From Candidatus Jettenia sp. (GTDB lineage: Bacteria > Planctomycetota > Brocadiia > Brocadiales > Brocadiaceae): a stretch of 64,000 nt of DNA. A program made the translations under genes and the position numbers. Position 1 is the stretch's first letter, and the number at the start of each line of letters is the position of its first letter. The stretch lies in contig CP091278.1 of NCBI GenBank assembly GCA_021650895.1, forward strand, positions 3,315,659 to 3,379,658, given 5' to 3'. Shown here piece after piece: positions 17,205 through 53,987 of the stretch. The notes beneath the pieces are model-generated. The model searched no databases. It worked only from the letters and a program-made list of their open reading frames with translations, and was not told the origin of the DNA.

Positions 17205-19349
17205 TTATCTCTCTTTTCCGCATTTACTCATCATTTTTGCCCTAACCAATCTTATCTCTTCATAGGAGTAGTCGTTTCCAAGTTTTTCTTTTACCGGGGT
17301 CATGAACTTCATGCCTAACTCTGCCAAGGTTTGCTTGATATGCTGCTGTTTTTCAGGGGCTATGAAGCCGTCTATTGAAATATCCTCGCCATCTAAAATG
17401 AGTTTTTCTATATGAGAAACAATGGTGGATAACGCCAGATTCCTTTTTTGTGCAATTTCTTCGAGGGTAAGGTGTTGCCGGTAAAGTTCTAAGGTTGTTT
17501 GCGTAGTGAGAGTTTTTGGCTGTTTTATAGGAAATTCGGGATGTTTATGGATAATTGGTTTCGATTCGATATGGTGTTGTTTACAGTAATCAGTAATTTC
17601 CTTGAGAAAAATCTCTCCGTATTTATGTAATTTTTGTTCCCCAATACCATTTATTTTCCGCAAATCAGGCAAATTTTGAGGATAATAGGTAGACATTTCT
17701 TTAAGACTGGTATCATGGAAGATAATATAAGGGGGCACAAACTCTTTGTCAGCAAGTGTTTTTCTGAGATTTCTTAAACGTTCAAATAAGGTACGATCGT
17801 AATCTCCATCCCTCTCATCCTTCTGAATGTGAAGTGGTTCTTCGGGTTTTGTTAAAAATACCTTTTCGTTGCGTAATAATACTTTTTGACTCTTTTCATT
17901 TAGCTTTAAGACGGGATACTTATCCCCATCAAGTTTTACGTACCCTAATTGAATTAACTCACGGGTAAACGCCTGCCACTGAGATTTTGTATATTCTTTC
18001 CCTACACCGTATGTCTTAATCGTATCGTGCCGGTTCTGCAATACCTTTTTGTTTTTCGAACCTTGCAAGACGTCAATAATGTAATTTACTCCAAATCGTT
18101 CACCTACCCTATAAATGCACGACAATATTTTTTGTGCAGCGATTGTTCCGTCAAATCGTTCCTTTGGCTCCAAACAAACATCACAATTGTTACAATTCGG
18201 TTCATCGAATTTTTCACCAAAATAATCCAGTAATAACTTTCTTCGGCAAATATTGCCCTCACAATAGTTTGTTAGGTCCCTCAACTGTTTGTATGCAATC
18301 AACTTTTCATTTTCATCTATCTTTTGATTAATAAAATACTCTATCTTAAATTTATCCGCGTAACTAAAGAATAAGATACAATCACTTTTTAATCCATCCC
18401 TTCCTGCACGTCCTGTTTCCTGGTAATATCCTTCGATGCTTTTCGGTAAATCATAGTGGATCACATATCGTACATCAGGTTTATCAATGCCCATACCGAA
18501 GGCAATCGTTGCCACGATAATTTCAACATCGTCATGGATGAACCGCTCCTGGTTTTCTGTTCTCACTTCAGCGGGTAAACCTGCATGGTATGGCAGGACG
18601 CGATATCCTTCTGCTTGCAAGCTTGTTGTTAAACTCTCCACGGTTTTACGGCTTTGACAATAGATGATTCCCGAGTCCTTCTTTCGACTTTTCAAATAGT
18701 GAAGTATTTGATGATATGGGTTATCTTTAGGTTTAATCTGGTAATACAGATTTTTCCTATTAAAACTTGCCTTGAAAACCCTGCAATTTGATAACTTCAA
18801 TTGTAAGATAATATCTTTCTGAACGGCAGGTGTAGCGGTAGCTGTCAGGGCCATAACAGGTACTTTGGGGAATTTCTCCTTCAATATCTCTAGCTGACGA
18901 TATTCGGGTCTGAAATCGTGTCCCCATTCTGAAATACAGTGTGATTCATCAATTGCAAACAGGGAGATCTTTAACCCTTGCAAAAACTGCAGAAATTCTG
19001 GCATAAATAATCTTTCTGGTGCAATATACAGAATCTTTATTTCATTATTTAATAAACTTTGCCTTTTTGCATCGATTTCACTATAGCTCAATGAACTATT
19101 AATAAATATTGCCGGGATACCGTTAGCAAGCAATCCATCCACCTGATCCTTCATCAAGGCAATGAGGGGAGAGACGACAATCGTTACACCGCTAAAAAGT
19201 AGGGCGGGCAGTTGATAACATAAGGATTTACCACCTCCTGTCGGCATAAGGACAAAGGCATCTCTTTGTGCCAATACTTCCTTAATAATGTCCTCCTGAA
19301 GGGGGTAAAAGCTTGTATAGCCAAAATATTTTTGTAATGTTTTGTACAT
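17205..19349 (-). CDS. recQ: ATP-dependent DNA helicase RecQ
   Basis: A 3'-5' DNA helicase of recombinational repair, 714 residues. The order is typical: Walker A TGGGKS (37-42), motif II IDESHCISEWGHDFRPEY, motif III LTATATP, motif V VATIAFGMGIDKPDVR and motif VI YYQETGRAGRDG. A zinc-binding segment (CEGNICRR...CNNCDVC, residues ~365-392) is followed by the RQC winged helix and an HRDC domain (residues ~525-600, LADKEFVPPYIIFHDTSLKEM). The end carries an extra helix-turn-helix region (LTLEEIAQKRNLALSTIVSHIEK) as in many Bacteroidetes- and anammox-type RecQ. Intact. The 3' end runs toward the 22-copy tandem array. Confidence 0.96.
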   Translation of the reverse strand: MYKTLQKYFGYTSFYPLQEDIIKEVLAQRDAFVLMPTGGGKSLCYQLPALLFSGVTIVVSPLIALMKDQVDGLLANGIPAIFINSSLSYSEIDAKRQSLLNNEIKILYIAPERLFMPEFLQFLQGLKISLFAIDESHCISEWGHDFRPEYRQLEILKEKFPKVPVMALTATATPAVQKDIILQLKLSNCRVFKASFNRKNLYYQIKPKDNPYHQILHYLKSRKKDSGIIYCQSRKTVESLTTSLQAEGYRVLPYHAGLPAEVRTENQERFIHDDVEIIVATIAFGMGIDKPDVRYVIHYDLPKSIEGYYQETGRAGRDGLKSDCILFFSYADKFKIEYFINQKIDENEKLIAYKQLRDLTNYCEGNICRRKLLLDYFGEKFDEPNCNNCDVCLEPKERFDGTIAAQKILSCIYRVGERFGVNYIIDVLQGSKNKKVLQNRHDTIKTYGVGKEYTKSQWQAFTRELIQLGYVKLDGDKYPVLKLNEKSQKVLLRNEKVFLTKPEEPLHIQKDERDGDYDRTLFERLRNLRKTLADKEFVPPYIIFHDTSLKEMSTYYPQNLPDLRKINGIGEQKLHKYGEIFLKEITDYCKQHHIESKPIIHKHPEFPIKQPKTLTTQTTLELYRQHLTLEEIAQKRNLALSTIVSHIEKLILDGEDISIDGFIAPEKQQHIKQTLAELGMKFMTPVKEKLGNDYSYEEIRLVRAKMMSKCGKER

Positions 19350-19781
19350 ATTTCTTTAGATTATCTGTTTCTAAAACACTCGTATATTTTTCCCCTTTTC
19401 TCAATTACTCGTACATTTCCTCCCTTTTAAAGGGGGATCAAGGGGGATTAAAAGACTGCTCCAGATAAAATTCCTCGCAATGATATAGATAACTTAAGGA
19501 GAAATGCTCCGTTGTTATTCTTTTCCTATTTACGTTACATTAGGTTGGGTTTTAAAAGGCAAAACCCAACGAGTTTTCTTTTACCCACCCCTCAATCCCC
19601 TCCCAAGAGGGGACTTTTATACTCCCCTCTTGAGAGGGGGTTGGGGGTGTGTTCCCTCCCTTTTTGGGAGAGGCTAGGGGTGTGTTCATGGCATAACGAA
19701 AAACTTTGAAATTCCTATACATATACATTAAATTAAGGTTTTGGGATGACCTCTAGTATTATGAATTACCTTGGCAGTGTA
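19350..19781. repeat. Intergenic composite repeats
   Basis: Contains a palindrome CCTCCCTTTTAAAGGGGGATCAAGGG near 19418-19450 (intergenic relative of the units found inside the U32 and AddA genes), a half REP element (TCCTCGCAATGA, ~19472-19484), the flank TAGGTTGGGTTTTAAAAGGC with its inverted copy (19543-19572), and the composite element CCCACCCCTCAATCCCC... at 19583-19687. At 19731-19757 is the 27-base AAATTAAGGTTTTGGGATGA... segment that recurs at 48999-49026. Confidence 0.75.
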
Positions 19782-22433
19782 CTATAGTAAACCTCTTTCA
19801 AAATTTCCGATCAATGAATCTCTTATTTTGCTCGTGTTTTGAATCTTTGAGAATAGAGTATGTATCATATCAGGAGTATAATCCTTATAACATAAATCAA
19901 CCCTGAAATTTGTTTGTCCTGCCTCAAGGAATTTTGGGATATAGTGGATAAGGGAAAATGGCTTTTCATGAATGACTATGGTCTTACATTCATTGTCCAT
20001 TGCTATGAGTTTATCGCCATATTCATTTTCTACAATCACTTGCTTGAAATTACACCGATTTTTTCCAGGACAAGTCCCTTTCTTATGTGCCCAAATGCAG
20101 GTTTCGGAGATGAAGAGCGGAATATCCTGGTAAATAACTATATCTGTATGGGAAGAAAACAGCTTCTGTAAATTATCTTTATCATCTTCGGGTGATAAGG
20201 TGTATTGGTGAAATCCCAATCCTTTCAGTTTTATTGCAGAGAGTGGATTTAGACAATACAAGGGATAATCGGCGTACAATAGGACATCCTTTCCCTCAAA
20301 CAGACCTATTGCTCCCAGGTTTGAAATCTGAAATTGCCTGAATCCTTGAGAGATCAATTCATTGAGAATCTTTTTAAAATATTCATAGGGGATAGATGCA
20401 TTCCCTTTATCTCTCATAATAACAGGAAATGAAAAAATAATCTTATCATGCATTTCCGGTAGTCCCCTTTTCGTAAAAATCTCATAAACTCTCTCTTTTA
20501 CAAAGGGGGATTGGGAAGGATTATCGTTTGTGAAGATTTTATCTGTTAGTAAGATGTATATCTTATACATTTTTTCTAACGGTATGTAGTTCAAATAATC
20601 CAGGGTATCAACTTTGATAGATAGCTTTATTCCATTTTCAGAAATAATGCTTTGTGAATATGCCTTTTTAGCTGTAGCACTATCGGGAATACCTCTTAAT
20701 CCCCCTGAGTCCCCCTTTAGAAAAGGGAGAAAGGGTGAATGTTTTAGAAAAGGGGGATTGGGAGGATTTAAGGAGATATTGCTGTTCGAGGTATTGAATT
20801 TGGTAATGGTATCCTTTATCCACTCCTTTATGTTTTCACCTCTGTACTCCCTATTCTTCATCCATGTTGCTGATAAATTTTTGAGATAATCTCTTCGAAT
20901 ATCATTTAATATACTGAGCGGGACAAATAAATCCTCGGAGATATCGGCATGCATGCTGGCTAATCTAAATGGCGTCCCACCTGAACGGGAAAAGCAGCTT
21001 TTTATATCTTCCTCTTGAATTATCTTATGGATTCCTTTCTCCAGATTTATAGGATAGTTCTTAGTATACGGGACGCTCTGTACAACTCCTTGTATGCTAA
21101 TACCATCTGGCCTTATTCTTACTTCGAGATCGGCTGGTATCTGAGAAGGTGCGAGTTTTTTCGGCATCTTTGGAGAAAACATCTCATGAACCTTTTGGGA
21201 AGAAAGTAGATAGAGCTTTGCGCCTTGTCTATAGTAGTGTTCGGTAGTAATCGCAGCAATATCACCTGCCTTTATACTAAATACCCTTTTCCCTTTCATC
21301 ACGATAGTCTTAACAGGTAGCAATGTCGGTTTTGCCAAATCATTCTCAAAAACCTGTAACAGATCTCTTACACCAATCTCCGCATCTGCTTTTATGGTAA
21401 GGTATCCATTTCCCGATTGTATTACTTCACCGGCGTAAGATCCGATATTTGCAGGATATGATGAGTTAATCATATCTGCCGCCTTTACCGGACCATTCCT
21501 TATAATTTTTCCATTTTTATGATCACTTTCTCTCAGTAAATACGAATGGGTTGTTTCCCGGCTAAAAACGGTTTTTATGCGACGAACAGCAGCATCGTAG
21601 TCATATAATTTACCATCAATGGCCTGTCGGTAAGCATGTGTTACTACGGCAACATATTCTGGTGATTTCATACGTCCTTCAATTTTACATGAATGGACAC
21701 CTGCATGTATCAGATTGCTTATGTGAGGAAGTGTAAGAAGGTCCTTCATAGAAAAAAAATATCCACCTTTATTCTGTTGATCCTTGTAATACATCCTGCA
21801 TGGCTGTGCGCAGCGCCCACGATTTCCGCTTCGGCCACCTATCATACTGCTGAAGAAGCATAATCCTGAATAGGAGTAACAAAGCGCCCCGTGGATAAAG
21901 ACCTCTATCTCTAAGGAGGTATTTTGTGAGATATGATTAATCTCATCCATTGATAATTCCCGGGCCAGGACGATACGTTTAAACCCCATCTTCTCCAGTT
22001 GTTTGACTCCGGCAATAGTATGAATGGCCATTTGTGTGCTGGCATGAACGGTAAATTGGGGGAATTGGGATTGTATTAAAGAGAGGAGTCCCAGATCCTG
22101 GAGGATGATAGCATCAGGTTGCAGTCCTTCCAATGCGATTAAATAATCCACAACCTTATCCAATTCGTTGGTTTTGATCAAGGTATTCAGGGCTATATAA
22201 ACCTTGATATGCCTTTCATGTGCATAAGCAATGACCTTGCTGGCATTGTCTATGCTAAAGTTTTCTGCACTGGCACGGGCGCTAAAGTCATTGAGACCCA
22301 GGTAAACGGCATCGGCTCCATTCTCAACAGCAGCAAAAAAACATTCCATAGTACCGGCAGGAGATAATAGCTCGGGCTTTTTTCGTTGAGATTGTGGATA
22401 AGATGATAGGGAGTGGGAATTGTTCTTTATCAT
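19782..22433 (-). CDS. U32 family peptidase / RlhA-type RNA hydroxylation protein
   Basis: An 883-residue U32 protein; relatives RlhA and TrhP take part in hydroxylation of 23S rRNA or tRNA, while others were named collagenase-like. The N-terminal TIM-barrel (residues ~15-300) has PELLSPAGTMECFFAAVENG, DAVYLG and the U32 signature (ALCYSYSGLCFFSSMIGGRS then GNRGRCAQPCR). A DUF3656-like middle and a Cys-rich end (CIWAHKKGTCPGKNRC) follow, and these Cys could bind an Fe-S cluster. Two stretches do not belong to the family: residues ~553-580 (NPPNPPFLKHSPFLPFLKG) and ~637-658 (NPSQSPFVKERV). Both are translations of the genome's CCCCCTTT/AAAGGGGG palindromes inserted in frame. The ORF stays open, so the protein is probably made. 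Monocistronic. Confidence 0.88.
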   Translation of the reverse strand: MIKNNSHSLSSYPQSQRKKPELLSPAGTMECFFAAVENGADAVYLGLNDFSARASAENFSIDNASKVIAYAHERHIKVYIALNTLIKTNELDKVVDYLIALEGLQPDAIILQDLGLLSLIQSQFPQFTVHASTQMAIHTIAGVKQLEKMGFKRIVLARELSMDEINHISQNTSLEIEVFIHGALCYSYSGLCFFSSMIGGRSGNRGRCAQPCRMYYKDQQNKGGYFFSMKDLLTLPHISNLIHAGVHSCKIEGRMKSPEYVAVVTHAYRQAIDGKLYDYDAAVRRIKTVFSRETTHSYLLRESDHKNGKIIRNGPVKAADMINSSYPANIGSYAGEVIQSGNGYLTIKADAEIGVRDLLQVFENDLAKPTLLPVKTIVMKGKRVFSIKAGDIAAITTEHYYRQGAKLYLLSSQKVHEMFSPKMPKKLAPSQIPADLEVRIRPDGISIQGVVQSVPYTKNYPINLEKGIHKIIQEEDIKSCFSRSGGTPFRLASMHADISEDLFVPLSILNDIRRDYLKNLSATWMKNREYRGENIKEWIKDTITKFNTSNSNISLNPPNPPFLKHSPFLPFLKGDSGGLRGIPDSATAKKAYSQSIISENGIKLSIKVDTLDYLNYIPLEKMYKIYILLTDKIFTNDNPSQSPFVKERVYEIFTKRGLPEMHDKIIFSFPVIMRDKGNASIPYEYFKKILNELISQGFRQFQISNLGAIGLFEGKDVLLYADYPLYCLNPLSAIKLKGLGFHQYTLSPEDDKDNLQKLFSSHTDIVIYQDIPLFISETCIWAHKKGTCPGKNRCNFKQVIVENEYGDKLIAMDNECKTIVIHEKPFSLIHYIPKFLEAGQTNFRVDLCYKDYTPDMIHTLFSKIQNTSKIRDSLIGNFERGLL
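20460..20524. repeat. In-frame palindromic element in the U32 gene (second unit)
   Basis: CCCCTTTTCGTAAA ... TTTACAAAGGGGGATTGGGAAGGATT; its arms pair. On the coding strand it gives NPSQSPFVKERVYEIF. Same sequence style as 20694-20776 and the AddA inserts. Confidence 0.65.
20694..20776. repeat. In-frame palindromic element in the U32 gene (first unit)
   Basis: CTTAATCCCCCTGAGTCCCCC ... AAAAGGGGGATTGGGAGGATT, an imperfect palindrome of about 83 bases. Translated in the gene frame it gives NPPNPPFLKHSPFLPFLKG, matching the inserts in the AddA-like gene (NPPPFLKGDQGGLKE). Confidence 0.75.
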
Positions 22434-34992: not shown

Positions 34993-36232
34993 GGCGAGCC
35001 TCCCCGTCAAATAATTTTTTACTTCCCTTCTACAGAAGAAGAGGGAATAAATTAGGTTAGGTTTTAAAAGACAAAACCCAACGACTGTTCTTTTTTACCC
35101 ACCCCGATATTCTCTGGATGGGGCTAAGAGGTGGGTTTCCTCCCAATTTACCCACCCCTCAATCCCCTCCCGAGAGGGGACTTTTATACTCCCCTCTTGA
35201 GAGGGGGTTGGGGGTGTGTTCCTTCCCCTCCTGGGAGGGGTTAGGGGTGGGTTCATTCCCCTGGAGAGACGCAACATCTTGCGTCTCTACAATTGGGGTA
35301 GGGGTGTGTTAACGGTATCATGAAAAACTTTGAATTTCCTAAACGTTCAATTAGGCTGCCTTTGGCCGCGCCTCATGAAGAAAAACGGATGTGTAGGGCA
35401 AGGCTTTAGCCTTGCCAAGCAACCCTGAAGGGTTGCCCTACAAAATTGAAATCCATATACATAAATTTACCCATAAAACGGAACTTCGATTCTAGCGGTT
35501 GACATGCCTGTGCGTAAAAGCTCATACGGATAAGCATGAAGGAGCGAAATAAACTGCACATTACAGTTTATAGCTACTTATATTTCCTTTATCATTTTAC
35601 TTATCGTTCCTTGAATTTCAAGGTAAATTATAGCATCCCATAGATGAAACTGACCGTACCAGTGCGAATCCAGAACACAAGCTATAAGCTTCGTTTCCAG
35701 CATAAGCTATAGTGATCAACGATGGAAACCAGACAGCATATAGCGGAGACGAAGTTTTGTAAATCACATGTTCTCCGGTATCGTGATCAATATTTACCAT
35801 GGAAACACTCGCGGAGTCGATGTAGGGCGAGGCTTTAGCCTTGCCTCATCCTGTCTGAACATGTAAGGGAGTAGCAACCCTAAAGGGTTACCCTACGGAA
35901 TTGAAATCTCTCAACTTTAAACGCAGAGATAAAGGAACGGTAAGGATAGGCAATCCCCCTTAATCTTCCAAAAAAGCTTATCCTTATCCGTACTTTAAAA
36001 CACCACGAAGAACACAAAATACACGAAGAATAAGAGAATTCAGCATCTCATTTTTATCCGATCAACACACTCAGTACAGACGTAAAATCTTGCATCTCTA
36101 GGTCCTTCTTTCTTCGTGCTCTTCGTGATTTACCTTGCTCTACCTTCGCTTTCCACCCCAACTTGCAGAAAGGATACGTTGCGAAAGGGGGGATCAGGGG
36201 AGATTACTCAAGCGGTAAAAAGAAAAAAGCGT
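34993..36232. repeat. Long repeat-filled intergenic region
   Basis: 1.24 kb without a gene. From left: flank TTAGGTTAGGTTTTAAAAGAC with inverted copy (~35052-35083); composite element (35098-35252); GAGACGCAACATCTTGCGTCTC hairpin (~35266-35287); palindrome 35393-35441 (GTAGGGCAAGGC...GTTGCCCTAC); a direct/inverted AAGCTATA/AGCTATAG cluster around 35690-35715; palindrome 35822-35896; and CGAAAGGGGGGATCAGGGG at ~36182, an intergenic relative of the in-gene palindromes. ORFs here are repeat artefacts. Confidence 0.75.
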
Positions 36233-49810: not shown

Positions 49811-50491
49811 TCAAACAGATATGGCCTTGCCTGATCTGAGGAAGATGAGTTTGAACTCAGGGTTGCCTCTGTTAAGACATCGCTTTACCGCCTCGGTATA
49901 GACTTCTTTTTGATGGCGGTATTTACCTAACTTCTCTGCAAACTGATCGCCGGTACGAATGTTCTTCCCACTATTACTCGCAAAAGAAGCCGATTCTGCA
50001 AGGGAAAGGTCTGTTGTCTTCATCGTGTCCGTCTTGTACTCAGCAACAATGATACGGTTATCTATCTTATAGAGGATATCGATTTTTCCTCTCATAATTT
50101 GTCCATTCCACGGAAGTAAGAAGGGTACTTCCCTCCCAAGAATTTCTGCATTTTGCAACTCCCTGTATGCCTCTGAATCAATAAAATCCAAAAGTATTTT
50201 AAATGTCTCTGCTTTTATAAACGTCAGGTCCCGGGCCTGTATCGTATACAGAGATTTTGTAACCATCCCTTCATATATTTCCGGAGAGGAAAAGAATGAA
50301 GGGTTGATATAAACCTTAGAACGCTCTTCTTCAGGAACAGAAATAGAAGTTGATGTATGTATCAGATTCGTTGACATAACTCTTGCATCCTCATTTTGCG
50401 TGGTGAACACCCATCTCATAGTGGATTCTATCAATCTACAGAGTTCTTCTTTCGCCCGTGAAAATCCCATCTCTCCAATACATAATGGCAC
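49811..50491 (-). CDS. AddA-like helicase-nuclease, 3' part after frameshift
   Basis: Continuation of the 50431-53796 gene after a one-base shift. The frame carries the PD-(D/E)XK nuclease of AddA/RecB-type enzymes: GKIDILYKIDNRIIVAEYKTD (Asp and the Glu-x-Lys), then the helical end with QFAEKLGKYRHQKEVY and FKLIFLRSGK. The first ~15 residues of the frame (MPLCIGEMGF) are shadow coding. Restored reading would be HYVLERWDF then SRAKEELCRL, needing one more T in the four-T run at 50461-50464 (read on the minus strand). With it, a ~1320-residue AddA-like protein results. Either a real null allele or a homopolymer error. Confidence 0.8.
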   Translation of the reverse strand: MPLCIGEMGFSRAKEELCRLIESTMRWVFTTQNEDARVMSTNLIHTSTSISVPEEERSKVYINPSFFSSPEIYEGMVTKSLYTIQARDLTFIKAETFKILLDFIDSEAYRELQNAEILGREVPFLLPWNGQIMRGKIDILYKIDNRIIVAEYKTDTMKTTDLSLAESASFASNSGKNIRTGDQFAEKLGKYRHQKEVYTEAVKRCLNRGNPEFKLIFLRSGKAISV

Positions 50492-53400
50492 ACGGAGCCA
50501 ATTAGCATAGCATTTAAATGGTCTTCAACAATCTTTCCGACTCTGTCACTGAAAGCAGAATTGGTTTCCTGGTAAATCATTCCTTCCTTAGAAAGAGAAG
50601 TTGGAGAGATAAAGATGGGGATTTGTTTTATCTCATCCATTGCCTGTTTACGCTTTTTCCATATTTCCACCCAGGATGCCCAATCGGCATTCCACTTTTT
50701 CCCTTTTTGGGCTTTTGAGGGACGACGTATGCCGTCGAATTTGAAATGTTCTACAAAAATCTCTGTATTTCCTAAAGAGATTTTTTTTCTCCTGGAGGAA
50801 TTGTTTTTTAATCCTCCTTGATTCCCCTTTAGAAAAGGGGAAGAATTCTCTTTGTTCTCCCTGAGAAAAGAGGAAATTTCCGGCGTTTTTGTAGAAGGTG
50901 ATGAAGGGCTATTTTCTGAATCTGCGGGCAAGCTGCTACTGCTCGTAACTATTTCGTTATCAAACTCAATACCTGCGGGTTCCTTCATCGATTGTGTAAT
51001 CAGTCCCATATAGGATCTATCGTCGTACTTCAATAAACCGGTAAGGATGAGTCGTTCCTTTGCCCTGGTCATTGCCACATAGAGGATTCGTTTCTCTTCT
51101 TCCCATGAACGGTCATTCAACTTCTTTTCAATAAGAATACTGTGCAGATTCCTTACTTGCCGGTCCCCTCTGCCGATCACTATGCCCGTTGTAGATGTAG
51201 ACCAATCGAATACTGCCGGACCCAGGACTTCATTATCATTTCTTACTTCACCATGTAAGTTACCCAGGATTACGATAGGAAATTCTAACCCCTTCGATTT
51301 ATGGATTGTCAGGATTTTCACAACATCCAGCGTCTCATCAGAAAGAGGACTCTCTCCCTCTTCCTTCGCCTCCTTTATTCGCCGGGTTATACGATCGATG
51401 AAGGTTTTCAAAGAAATCGTCTCAGATTGTTCCTGATCGCATGCCATCTGGTAGAGTTTCCGGAGGTTAGCCAGCTTCTGTTCGCCGTGCCATGCAGAGG
51501 CGGTAATCTCGGCAATATGGGTATTGTCCATAATCTCGTCAATAAGCTGAGAAACGGGAAGTATACCTGCACGAGCATGGAATTTTCTAAGAAGATCATA
51601 AAACTCTTTTACTATGGGTATAAAATCGGGTTGATTCAGGGTTTTGTCATTTTCTTTTAATCCCCCTTGATCCCCCTTTAGAAAAGGGGGAGGATTTGTT
51701 TGATTTTCCTTGAGAGAAGGGGGAGAACTCTCTTGATCCTCTTTTGAAAAAGAGAAGGAATTCCCTTTATCTTCCTCCAGAAAAGCGAGAAAAGAATTAT
51801 TTTCATCCCTCTGTATCGGTCCGTGCCCATTCAGAATTTCATCTGAGATGTCTTTGCGGTAATCGAACAAATTGTGTATACGAAGTTTATATATCTCACG
51901 GTCGGTTAAGCCTACCATAGGTGAACGCAGCACACCTGCCAGGGCAATCGTATCGTAAGGGTTTTCTATGATACGGAGGAGATTCATAAAATCGAGAATT
52001 TCCTGAGTGGTATAGAAGTATTTTTCACCTTCTACAAGGTAAGGAATACCGTATCGTTTAAAGGCCTCAATATACGGCCTTACCTGGGTAAATGCACGCA
52101 GAAGCAAGGCAACATCCTTGTATCGAAGCTTTCGCAGTTTATTCTCTGCCAATTCATCCCTTATAGCTTCATTATTTACTTGTTTTATTATCCATCGTGC
52201 AATCCACTCGGCCTCAGCCTCCCTCGATTCATCGGCTTTCATCTCCTTCCCTTCATTATCAGACACAAGGATGATCTCAACTGTTTGTGAGGGATGGACC
52301 TTTGGTCTATTGGCATGGATGGGAATATAACAGGGTTGCAAGCCAGGCCGTTCTATCATGATTCTTCCATCAAACAACTGGTTTATTACATCAATGATAC
52401 CACCATGACTTCTAAAATTTTCCTGTAATTTTAAAACCTCGTTCGGCCCGCAAATCTGTTTTACTACCTGTTCATAGGCCTCAATATCTGCCCTGCGGAA
52501 GGAATAAATGGATTGTTTGGGATCGCCAACAATAAAAAGCTTTCCCGGCTCAAGGACTACCTCACGGGCTTCCTTGCTATAGTTTCCCGATACCTCCGAA
52601 AGAAAAAGAACAATCTCGTACTGAACAGGGTCGGTATCCTGAAACTCATCCACGAGTATAGCCTTGAACTCAGATTTCAGTCTATCCCGAATAAAACGGT
52701 ATTCACTATTCAGGAGTAAATCTCTGGTTAAGGTAAGAAGACCATCAAAAGAGACATACCCCTGTGATATATACGTTTGCCGAAAAGCCTTTGCAAAAGG
52801 GATGATGAGGTCTAATATGACCTTTATAAACTCATCATCAACAGTTTTTAACTTCTTTAATAGATTATGACTCTCTTTTACCAGCGCCTGCGCTATTTCA
52901 AATCCTCCATTTATCCATCCCGCCTTTGCCTCGGAAGCTTTCTTATCAAGGTCGTACTCCAGGTTGTTCAAGTGGCGAACACCTTCTTTCTTTATTGTAT
53001 CAAGAATCTTTAATAATTCCTGTAACCGTGAAAGAAGGTTGTTCTTTGGTTTTTCACAGGAAGGGATAATTTTGTTAATTTCATTCCGTAAAGGATCTAG
53101 TATCGTATGGTACCATTCATCATTAGACCTCGACGTGAGAGAGTTGAAAGGGATAGTAAACCCTGACAAGCGTTTTGCTAATTCCTTAAGCGATCCAAGG
53201 TCTAATCGCTTGAGTACATATTTCCAGATATTTGCATGAGGGGAAGCGAGGATAAGCTCTGTATCCAGCCACCGTGTCCATTCTTTATCAAATAATTCAT
53301 CAAAGACATCCCCTTCGTCCACTACGAACCCGGGCACTACACCTGATTCAACAGGATACAGGCGCAGGATATAGGCGGCAAAGCTGTGAATCGTTCCAAT

Positions 53401-53796
53401 AACGGCTTTATCCATGTCCTCAAGGGATTTCCTTGCGCGACGTTCAATTTCACGATACGTTACCTGATAGGTATCACGGATGTGAGCCAGAAACGCTTCT
53501 CCTTTCATCTTCTCATCTTCTGAGGCATTTCCCTTGATAACAGCGACAATCTTTTCCAGTTCTCCCAGCAATCTCATCTTTATATCGCTGGCAGCCTTCT
53601 CGGTAAACGTCATGGCAACTAGTTTTTGGATAGGGCTTTCTTCTGTTTGAAGCCTTTTGTGGCCTAAAAGCACGTGCAATATCCGATTTACCAGAAGTGT
53701 AGTCTTGCCAGTTCCTGCACCAGCCGTCACAACTATATTTCTCTCCTGTTCGAATACCGCAAGTTTTCTTGTAGCATCATCGATAGGCTTTTGCAT
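50431..53796 (-). CDS. AddA/UvrD-like DNA helicase-nuclease, 5' part
   Basis: 1121 residues of a superfamily-1A helicase of the AddA/RecB type for double-strand break repair. Walker A TAGAGTGKTTLL (residues 24-35), FTEKAASDIK, motif II ILVDEFQDTD, FIVGDPKQSIYSFRRA, QENFRS, TIHKSKGLEFP and YVAMTRAKERL are intact. Two segments are foreign: residues ~664-714 (runs of NSFSFSKEDQE, SSPPSLKENQT, NPPPFLKGDQGG) and ~960-996 (ISSFLRENKE, NSSPFLKGNQGG). Both are translations of the palindromic CCCCCTTT/AAAGGGGG repeats, the first expanded to four tandem units. The true C-terminal nuclease lies in another frame after a one-base deletion near 50461, so this ORF ends in junk. No AddB partner gene is in the window. 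Confidence 0.86.
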   Translation of the reverse strand: MQKPIDDATRKLAVFEQERNIVVTAGAGTGKTTLLVNRILHVLLGHKRLQTEESPIQKLVAMTFTEKAASDIKMRLLGELEKIVAVIKGNASEDEKMKGEAFLAHIRDTYQVTYREIERRARKSLEDMDKAVIGTIHSFAAYILRLYPVESGVVPGFVVDEGDVFDELFDKEWTRWLDTELILASPHANIWKYVLKRLDLGSLKELAKRLSGFTIPFNSLTSRSNDEWYHTILDPLRNEINKIIPSCEKPKNNLLSRLQELLKILDTIKKEGVRHLNNLEYDLDKKASEAKAGWINGGFEIAQALVKESHNLLKKLKTVDDEFIKVILDLIIPFAKAFRQTYISQGYVSFDGLLTLTRDLLLNSEYRFIRDRLKSEFKAILVDEFQDTDPVQYEIVLFLSEVSGNYSKEAREVVLEPGKLFIVGDPKQSIYSFRRADIEAYEQVVKQICGPNEVLKLQENFRSHGGIIDVINQLFDGRIMIERPGLQPCYIPIHANRPKVHPSQTVEIILVSDNEGKEMKADESREAEAEWIARWIIKQVNNEAIRDELAENKLRKLRYKDVALLLRAFTQVRPYIEAFKRYGIPYLVEGEKYFYTTQEILDFMNLLRIIENPYDTIALAGVLRSPMVGLTDREIYKLRIHNLFDYRKDISDEILNGHGPIQRDENNSFLAFLEEDKGNSFSFSKEDQESSPPSLKENQTNPPPFLKGDQGGLKENDKTLNQPDFIPIVKEFYDLLRKFHARAGILPVSQLIDEIMDNTHIAEITASAWHGEQKLANLRKLYQMACDQEQSETISLKTFIDRITRRIKEAKEEGESPLSDETLDVVKILTIHKSKGLEFPIVILGNLHGEVRNDNEVLGPAVFDWSTSTTGIVIGRGDRQVRNLHSILIEKKLNDRSWEEEKRILYVAMTRAKERLILTGLLKYDDRSYMGLITQSMKEPAGIEFDNEIVTSSSSLPADSENSPSSPSTKTPEISSFLRENKENSSPFLKGNQGGLKNNSSRRKKISLGNTEIFVEHFKFDGIRRPSKAQKGKKWNADWASWVEIWKKRKQAMDEIKQIPIFISPTSLSKEGMIYQETNSAFSDRVGKIVEDHLNAMLIGSVCHYVLERWDFHGRKKNSVD
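50807..50915. repeat. In-frame palindromic repeat inside the AddA-like gene (unit 2)
   Basis: AATCCTCCTTGATTCCCC ... AAAAGGGGAAGAATTC with a degenerate neighbour unit. Coding-strand translation: ISSFLRENKE, NSSPFLKGNQGGLK. Confidence 0.7.
51655..51805. repeat. In-frame palindromic repeats inside the AddA-like gene (unit 1, expanded)
   Basis: TTAATCCCCCTTGATCCCCC TTTAGAAAAGGGGG followed by three degenerate ~33-base units. Translation: NSFLAFLEEDKG, NSFSFSKEDQE, SSPPSLKENQT, NPPPFLKGDQGG. Period of 11-12 codons. Confidence 0.7.
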
Positions 53797-53987
53797 GATA
53801 GTGTATTGCTCTATAAAAGATTTTTCTTCCGTTACATGAGGCGAGGATAAATTTGTAAAGATGCAAACCTAAAGGTTTGCCCTACGTTTGAGCTTTATAG
53901 TTAATAATACAATTTTTTATTTGAAATATCAGGATAATTTTAAATAATGACAATAGGATATGTCCATAGAATAAGGAGGTAAAATTT

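Follow-up and report, generated by a model that had tools for sequence, protein, structure and literature searches.

Probable in-frame copies of a dispersed palindromic element in a U32 family gene and other genes of the anammox bacterium Candidatus Jettenia

RESULTS

The U32 gene and the repeat copies around it

The window, i.e. the whole stretch of 64,000 nucleotides that was analysed, corresponds to positions 3315659-3379658 of the single-contig 3.82 Mb genome of an anammox bacterium of the family Brocadiaceae. The features around its U32 family gene, and a further intergenic segment, are as follows.

19782..22433, minus strand: U32 family gene, host of the inserts; ORF of 883 residues with Peptidase_U32 and DUF3656 domains
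20697..20771, plus strand: DNA of insert 1, two head-on palindromes, TAATCCCCCTGAGTCCCCCTTTAGAAAAGGGAGAAAGGGTGAATGTTTTAGAAAAGGGGGATTGGGAGGATTTA; the minus-strand reading is NPPNPPFLKHSPFLPFLKGDSGGL
20640..20783, minus strand: low-confidence loop (residues 551-598) containing insert 1, from the alignment and pLDDT below 50
20487..20522, minus strand: insert 2, a putative decayed single unit NPSQSPFVKERV (residues 638-649), from a weak profile match and its position
19422..19450, minus strand: intergenic copy between the U32 gene and the ORF at 17205-19349 (profile E 2e-8)
36184..36208, plus strand: intergenic single-arm remnant (AAAGGGGGGATCAGGGGAGATTA), non-palindromic, from the sequence

The Peptidase_U32 domain (PF01136, residues 91-303, E 3e-80) scores 269 bits against a Pfam cut-off of 22.4, which places the protein in the U32 family, and DUF3656 (PF12392) is matched at residues 410-522 with E 6e-13. 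No NCBIfam equivalog cut-off was reached. Orthologues across the Brocadiaceae are 52-93% identical to it, the nearest named one being that of Candidatus Jettenia ecosi (92%), followed by that of Candidatus Brocadia pituitae (57%). As expected, a Foldseek search of the PDB returned the U32 entries 5d88 and 4he5, other matches being poorer. The original prediction was that two segments of this protein are translations of palindromes that also occur between genes, and that they leave the reading frame open. The 883-residue frame does run through both segments, and in its translation the peptides NPPNPPFLKHSPFLPFLKG and NPSQSPFVKERV start at residues 556 and 638.

For insert 1 the identity with intergenic DNA is clear. 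The alignment with intergenic copies extends over 61 bp at 90% identity (E 4e-18; the best copies 88-93%) and takes in the short spacer joining the two palindromes. A profile of the repeat matched at 20697-20727 (E 6e-10) and weakly at 20743-20757 (E 0.087), and the terminal arms pair when insert 1 is folded as DNA (z -1.9). Insert 2 taken alone gave a profile match below significance (E 0.31) and folded no better than shuffles; it is assigned as a decayed copy mainly because it lies where insertions recur among the orthologues. The two intergenic copies that had been named also fared differently: the one at 19418-19450 was recovered by the profile, but that near 36182 is a single arm that gave no hairpin on folding and no match in the profile search. 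A second, different intergenic palindrome, with 25-nt arms CCCTCAATCCCCTCCCAAGAGGGGA and TCCCCTCTTGAGAGGGGGTTGGGGG, lies beside the U32 gene at 19589-19647.

The dispersed palindrome

The palindrome TCCCCCTTT-n-AAAGGGGGA, i.e. TCCCCCTTTN(0-20)AAAGGGGGA, was found 90 times in the 3.82 Mb genome as against once for the reversed pattern. A typical unit has the sequence TAATCCCCCTTGATCCCCCTTTAGAAAAGGGGG and the structure TAATCCCCC-n4-CCCCCTTT-n3-AAAGGGGG. Units are ∼35 bp long and are frequently doubled head-on, composites being 75 bp long; both composites and nested copies are common. Built from 21 copies, the profile matched 46 times in 400 kb but not once in the reversed sequence. The majority of copies have two of the six reading frames open (79 and 75 of 93), which makes survival inside genes likelier. 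Among 246 genomes, the exact palindrome reaches high copy number only in Jettenia (89 and 64 copies), in a genome from the same order (28) and in another from the phylum (12). A wide distribution in the phylum was rejected, as so few of the 246 genomes have it in high copy.

Approximately half of the clusters of copies are situated close to one end of a larger, MITE-like element, whose ends are TATGCATCAAGCTAA and TTAGCTTGATGCATA. These ends were counted in a sample of 1.6 Mb, consisting of four 400-kb stretches of the host genome, where they occur 87 times, compared with a single occurrence in the reversed control. Of the 124 clusters in this sample, 59 have TATGCATCAAGCTAA or its complement no more than 250 bp away on the expected side, and nine have it on both sides. 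Pairs of the 15-bp TIRs are mostly 180-900 bp apart (e.g. G000:C1:3258749-3259025) and many enclose CCCCCTTT palindromes, while the U32 copies consist of the inner palindromes only, without the MITE-like ends. Opposite the intergenic clusters at 3306180, 3467209 and 3579838, the congener G002 has short sites free of the repeat; a reading of the junctions by eye established no target-site duplication.

Neither a mobilising enzyme nor a parent transposon was found at the 12 Y1_Tnp loci or in two TIR-bounded stretches. A RAYT was rejected as the mobiliser because none of the 12 loci is near a strong copy, there being two weak matches only. An autonomous element between TIRs was likewise rejected because the two stretches, of 2.5 and 3.2 kb, have no transposase gene; by eye, the genes that they do contain resemble an aminotransferase and a sigma-54 regulator.

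Copies in other genes

The 1.6 Mb sample gave 171 profile matches in the 124 clusters. Copies within genes were called from spanning ORFs, Pfam matches and orthologues, a coding-score filter having proved too strict since it missed the U32 gene. Only 12 of the 124 clusters were within ORFs of at least 200 residues, compared with 66% of random positions, indicating that genes are avoided; this count needs an open ORF and is thus biased towards in-frame copies, broken genes being testable only in the 400 kb with a congener for comparison. Among the hosts in the sample are FolC, a radical-SAM protein, four DUF7948/SBBP proteins and a 246-residue ORF with no Pfam match, together with an AddA/UvrD-like helicase and a TPR protein that have two sites each. 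In three DUF7948/SBBP paralogues (G000:C1:3405465-3409811, 87374-89851 and 1561058-1564741), an in-frame repeat pair NPPNPPLEKGG...PFLKGDQGG is found at an equivalent position within the DUF7948 domain, the distance between the two units differing from one paralogue to another. The helicase gene lies in the window.

50434..53868, minus strand: AddA/UvrD-like helicase gene, ORF of 1145 residues with two in-frame copies (PF00580, PF13361)
51658..51691, plus strand: in-frame copy TNPPPFLKGDQGGLKE (profile E 8e-14); relatives lack the segment or have a different one
50809..50840, plus strand: in-frame copy SSPFLKGNQGGLK (profile E 1e-8); 27 bp longer in G002, which has an extra unit

Both helicase copies were absent from the original list of sites. 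The helicase scored below the cut-offs of TIGR02785 and TIGR00609. Orthologues of the helicase, FolC and radical-SAM proteins in relatives either lack the segments or have other repeat-like peptides instead, and in the helicase there are two shared sites of this kind. Its ORF also stops early (noted at 50446-50497 of the window), the last ∼230 residues being shifted in frame relative to the G002 orthologue (1334 residues); this is either a true frameshift here or an assembly error.

It had been proposed that in-frame and out-of-frame insertions be counted. The copies in genes were in frame in every case that allowed comparison with a close orthologue. Within genes, the size differences from G002 (9, 27 and 126 bp) are each divisible by three; a further difference of 16 bp was left out because it comes from pairing a gene with a homologue that has diverged (74-82% identity). 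Clean intergenic comparisons with the same congener gave 192, 379, 453, 560 and 194 bp. No orthologous gene split by a repeat copy was observed in the 400 kb compared with G002.

Insertion in the U32 orthologues

Comparison of 25 Brocadiaceae U32 orthologues indicated that inserts 1 and 2 are specific to lineages, with the conserved flanks intact, and the alignment gave no sign that the segments are conserved in distant homologues. Insert 1 is situated after the helix that follows DUF3656 and before the strand that opens the C-terminal region. This region comprises 60 residues in the window protein as against 15-23 in the 11 orthologues without the insert (L036, L037, L039, L041, L042, L045, L046, L047, L051, L052 and L059). 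The presence or absence of insert 1 follows lineages. It is found in all three Jettenia genomes, with variable length and low sequence conservation between these congeners.

The same two spots are occupied in relatives by other peptides, namely NPPLEKGGWGD (L031), QPPLFPFNKGGQRG (L032 and L043), TPPNSPPLQGGDGGVE (L032) and VDAQHDK...HSEHSEES (L039). The DNA encoding three such peptides is itself dispersed in the genome of origin, with 20 further matches in G008 (for L039), 20 in G014 (for L031) and five in G015 (for L032). At the second U32 site the G008 repeat is read in frame; its sequence is unlike CCCCCTTT. Four internal sites of the U32 protein (window residues 314, 455, 552-595 and 632-650) vary by at least 10 residues, and each holds repeat-like peptides in some lineage. 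On a tree constructed without the insert columns and with some forks open, presence was estimated to have changed five or more times at either site, and the type of repeat, assigned by us from the peptides, seven or more times.

Effect of the inserts on the U32 protein

The AlphaFold2 model, calculated from a 23-sequence alignment, has a mean pLDDT of 73.9. Most of the domains surrounding the inserts have values of 80-95, while residues 551-598 and 636-642 are below 50, as are other segments such as 184-231 and 298-328, although low pLDDT may also reflect the small number of sequences covering an insert. It had been asked whether the segments loop out of the fold; the model agrees with this, and the inserts are predicted to be disordered extra loops in an otherwise largely well-modelled structure. 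The dN/dS ratio among the three Jettenia orthologues is 0.27-0.31 for the core and 0.51-1.13 for the inserts, the latter being a rough value from ∼60 codons. This indicates purifying selection on the core, so that U32 is conserved as a protein, with weaker constraint on the inserts.

DISCUSSION

Origin and persistence of the inserts

Our reading of the above results, to which we assign a probability of roughly 0.87, is that both U32 segments represent copies of a non-autonomous palindromic element that is dispersed in the genome, and that such copies are kept within genes where frame and loop tolerate them. The copies would land widely across the genome, spread by an enzyme acting in trans. 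Those falling in genes would survive only if their length keeps the frame, the frame is free of stops and the site, a loop or linker, can accommodate 10-50 extra residues; they would remain as disordered peptide on which selection is relaxed. The in-frame bias would reflect survivorship rather than targeting.

Targeted insertion, in which the repeats or their enzymes prefer certain sites, such as earlier remnants, and so hit the same loops repeatedly, is an unlikely explanation, though the likeliest of the alternatives. All four variable U32 sites carry repeat-like peptides somewhere in the family, the helicase has its two shared sites, and composites and nested copies are frequent. However, the repeats of G008 and Jettenia at one site are unrelated, which argues against one sequence-specific enzyme, and the sites are low-confidence loops of the model, so tolerance alone explains the coincidence. 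Selection of the extra loop for a role in the protein, for example in binding or regulation, could account for the retention of insert 1 in all three Jettenia genomes, but dN/dS for the inserts is 0.5-1.1 compared with 0.3 for the core, and low conservation and variable length between congeners make such domestication very improbable. It is still harder to credit that Pro/Lys/Gly-rich linkers arising from slippage or codon bias have simply come to resemble the repeat. The sequence is simple and rich in C and G runs and insert 2 is weak. Convergence stands for insert 2 only; for insert 1 it is contradicted by the 61-bp match including the spacer between palindromes, by the absence of profile matches in reversed sequence and by a presence and absence that follows lineages.

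Dispersed palindromes could be a major source of new protein loops in the Brocadiaceae, and one still active, with unrelated families in different lineages re-entering the same loops of U32, the AddA-like helicase and FolC, and most large differences in length between orthologues would then be derived from repeats; this proposal is tentative and falls a little short of an even bet. The most interesting part is the reuse of the same loops, across the family, by repeats of different sequence. The birth and decay of the extra peptide can be compared directly here, some congeners having copies that others lack and relatives differing in the repeats that occupy a given loop. In anammox proteins, peptides like PPFLKGDQGGL should be taken for translated repeats and not for motifs; a literature search found no paper that discusses them.

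Comparison with known systems

In-frame palindromic inserts in genes for conserved proteins are established in Rickettsia, where the RPEs are 105-146 bp long (PMC2229807). The parallel with RPEs drawn in the original prediction stands as regards behaviour, the Jettenia palindromes also being dispersed between genes and in frame inside conserved genes with protein function apparently kept. It does not extend to length, a unit of ∼35 bp and a composite of 75 bp being shorter than RPEs, and the host belongs to the Planctomycetota.

Intragenic REPs are palindromes of 20-40 bp, of the GTAG and CGTC families, and have repair helicases among their hosts (PMC3733652). They share with the Jettenia repeat a short palindrome in high copy number, a mainly intergenic location, head-on dimers and some in-frame copies in genes. 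In contrast to REPs, the Jettenia stem has no GTAG or CGTC tag, the commonest flanking tetramers being ATTT, TGAT, TAAC, TTTC and TAAT, and the linked RAYT flanked by copies, as seen with GTAG REPs, was not found at the 12 Y1_Tnp loci. The proximity of approximately half of the clusters to a 15-bp TIR (within 250 bp) and the empty sites in the congener are reminiscent of MITEs, but the U32 copies have no such ends and the two TIR-bounded stretches did not yield a parent transposon.

Earlier descriptions of palindromes inserted in frame come mainly from Rickettsia and from some REPs, and the anammox lineage provides a distant new case involving several conserved genes. In recB of Xanthomonas, different REPs are found at about the same site (PMC3733652); here, the same-site pattern is family-wide, with several genes affected and repeats that are unrelated in sequence. 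On these comparisons, the Jettenia repeat works like RPEs and intragenic REPs, the likeness being one of behaviour.
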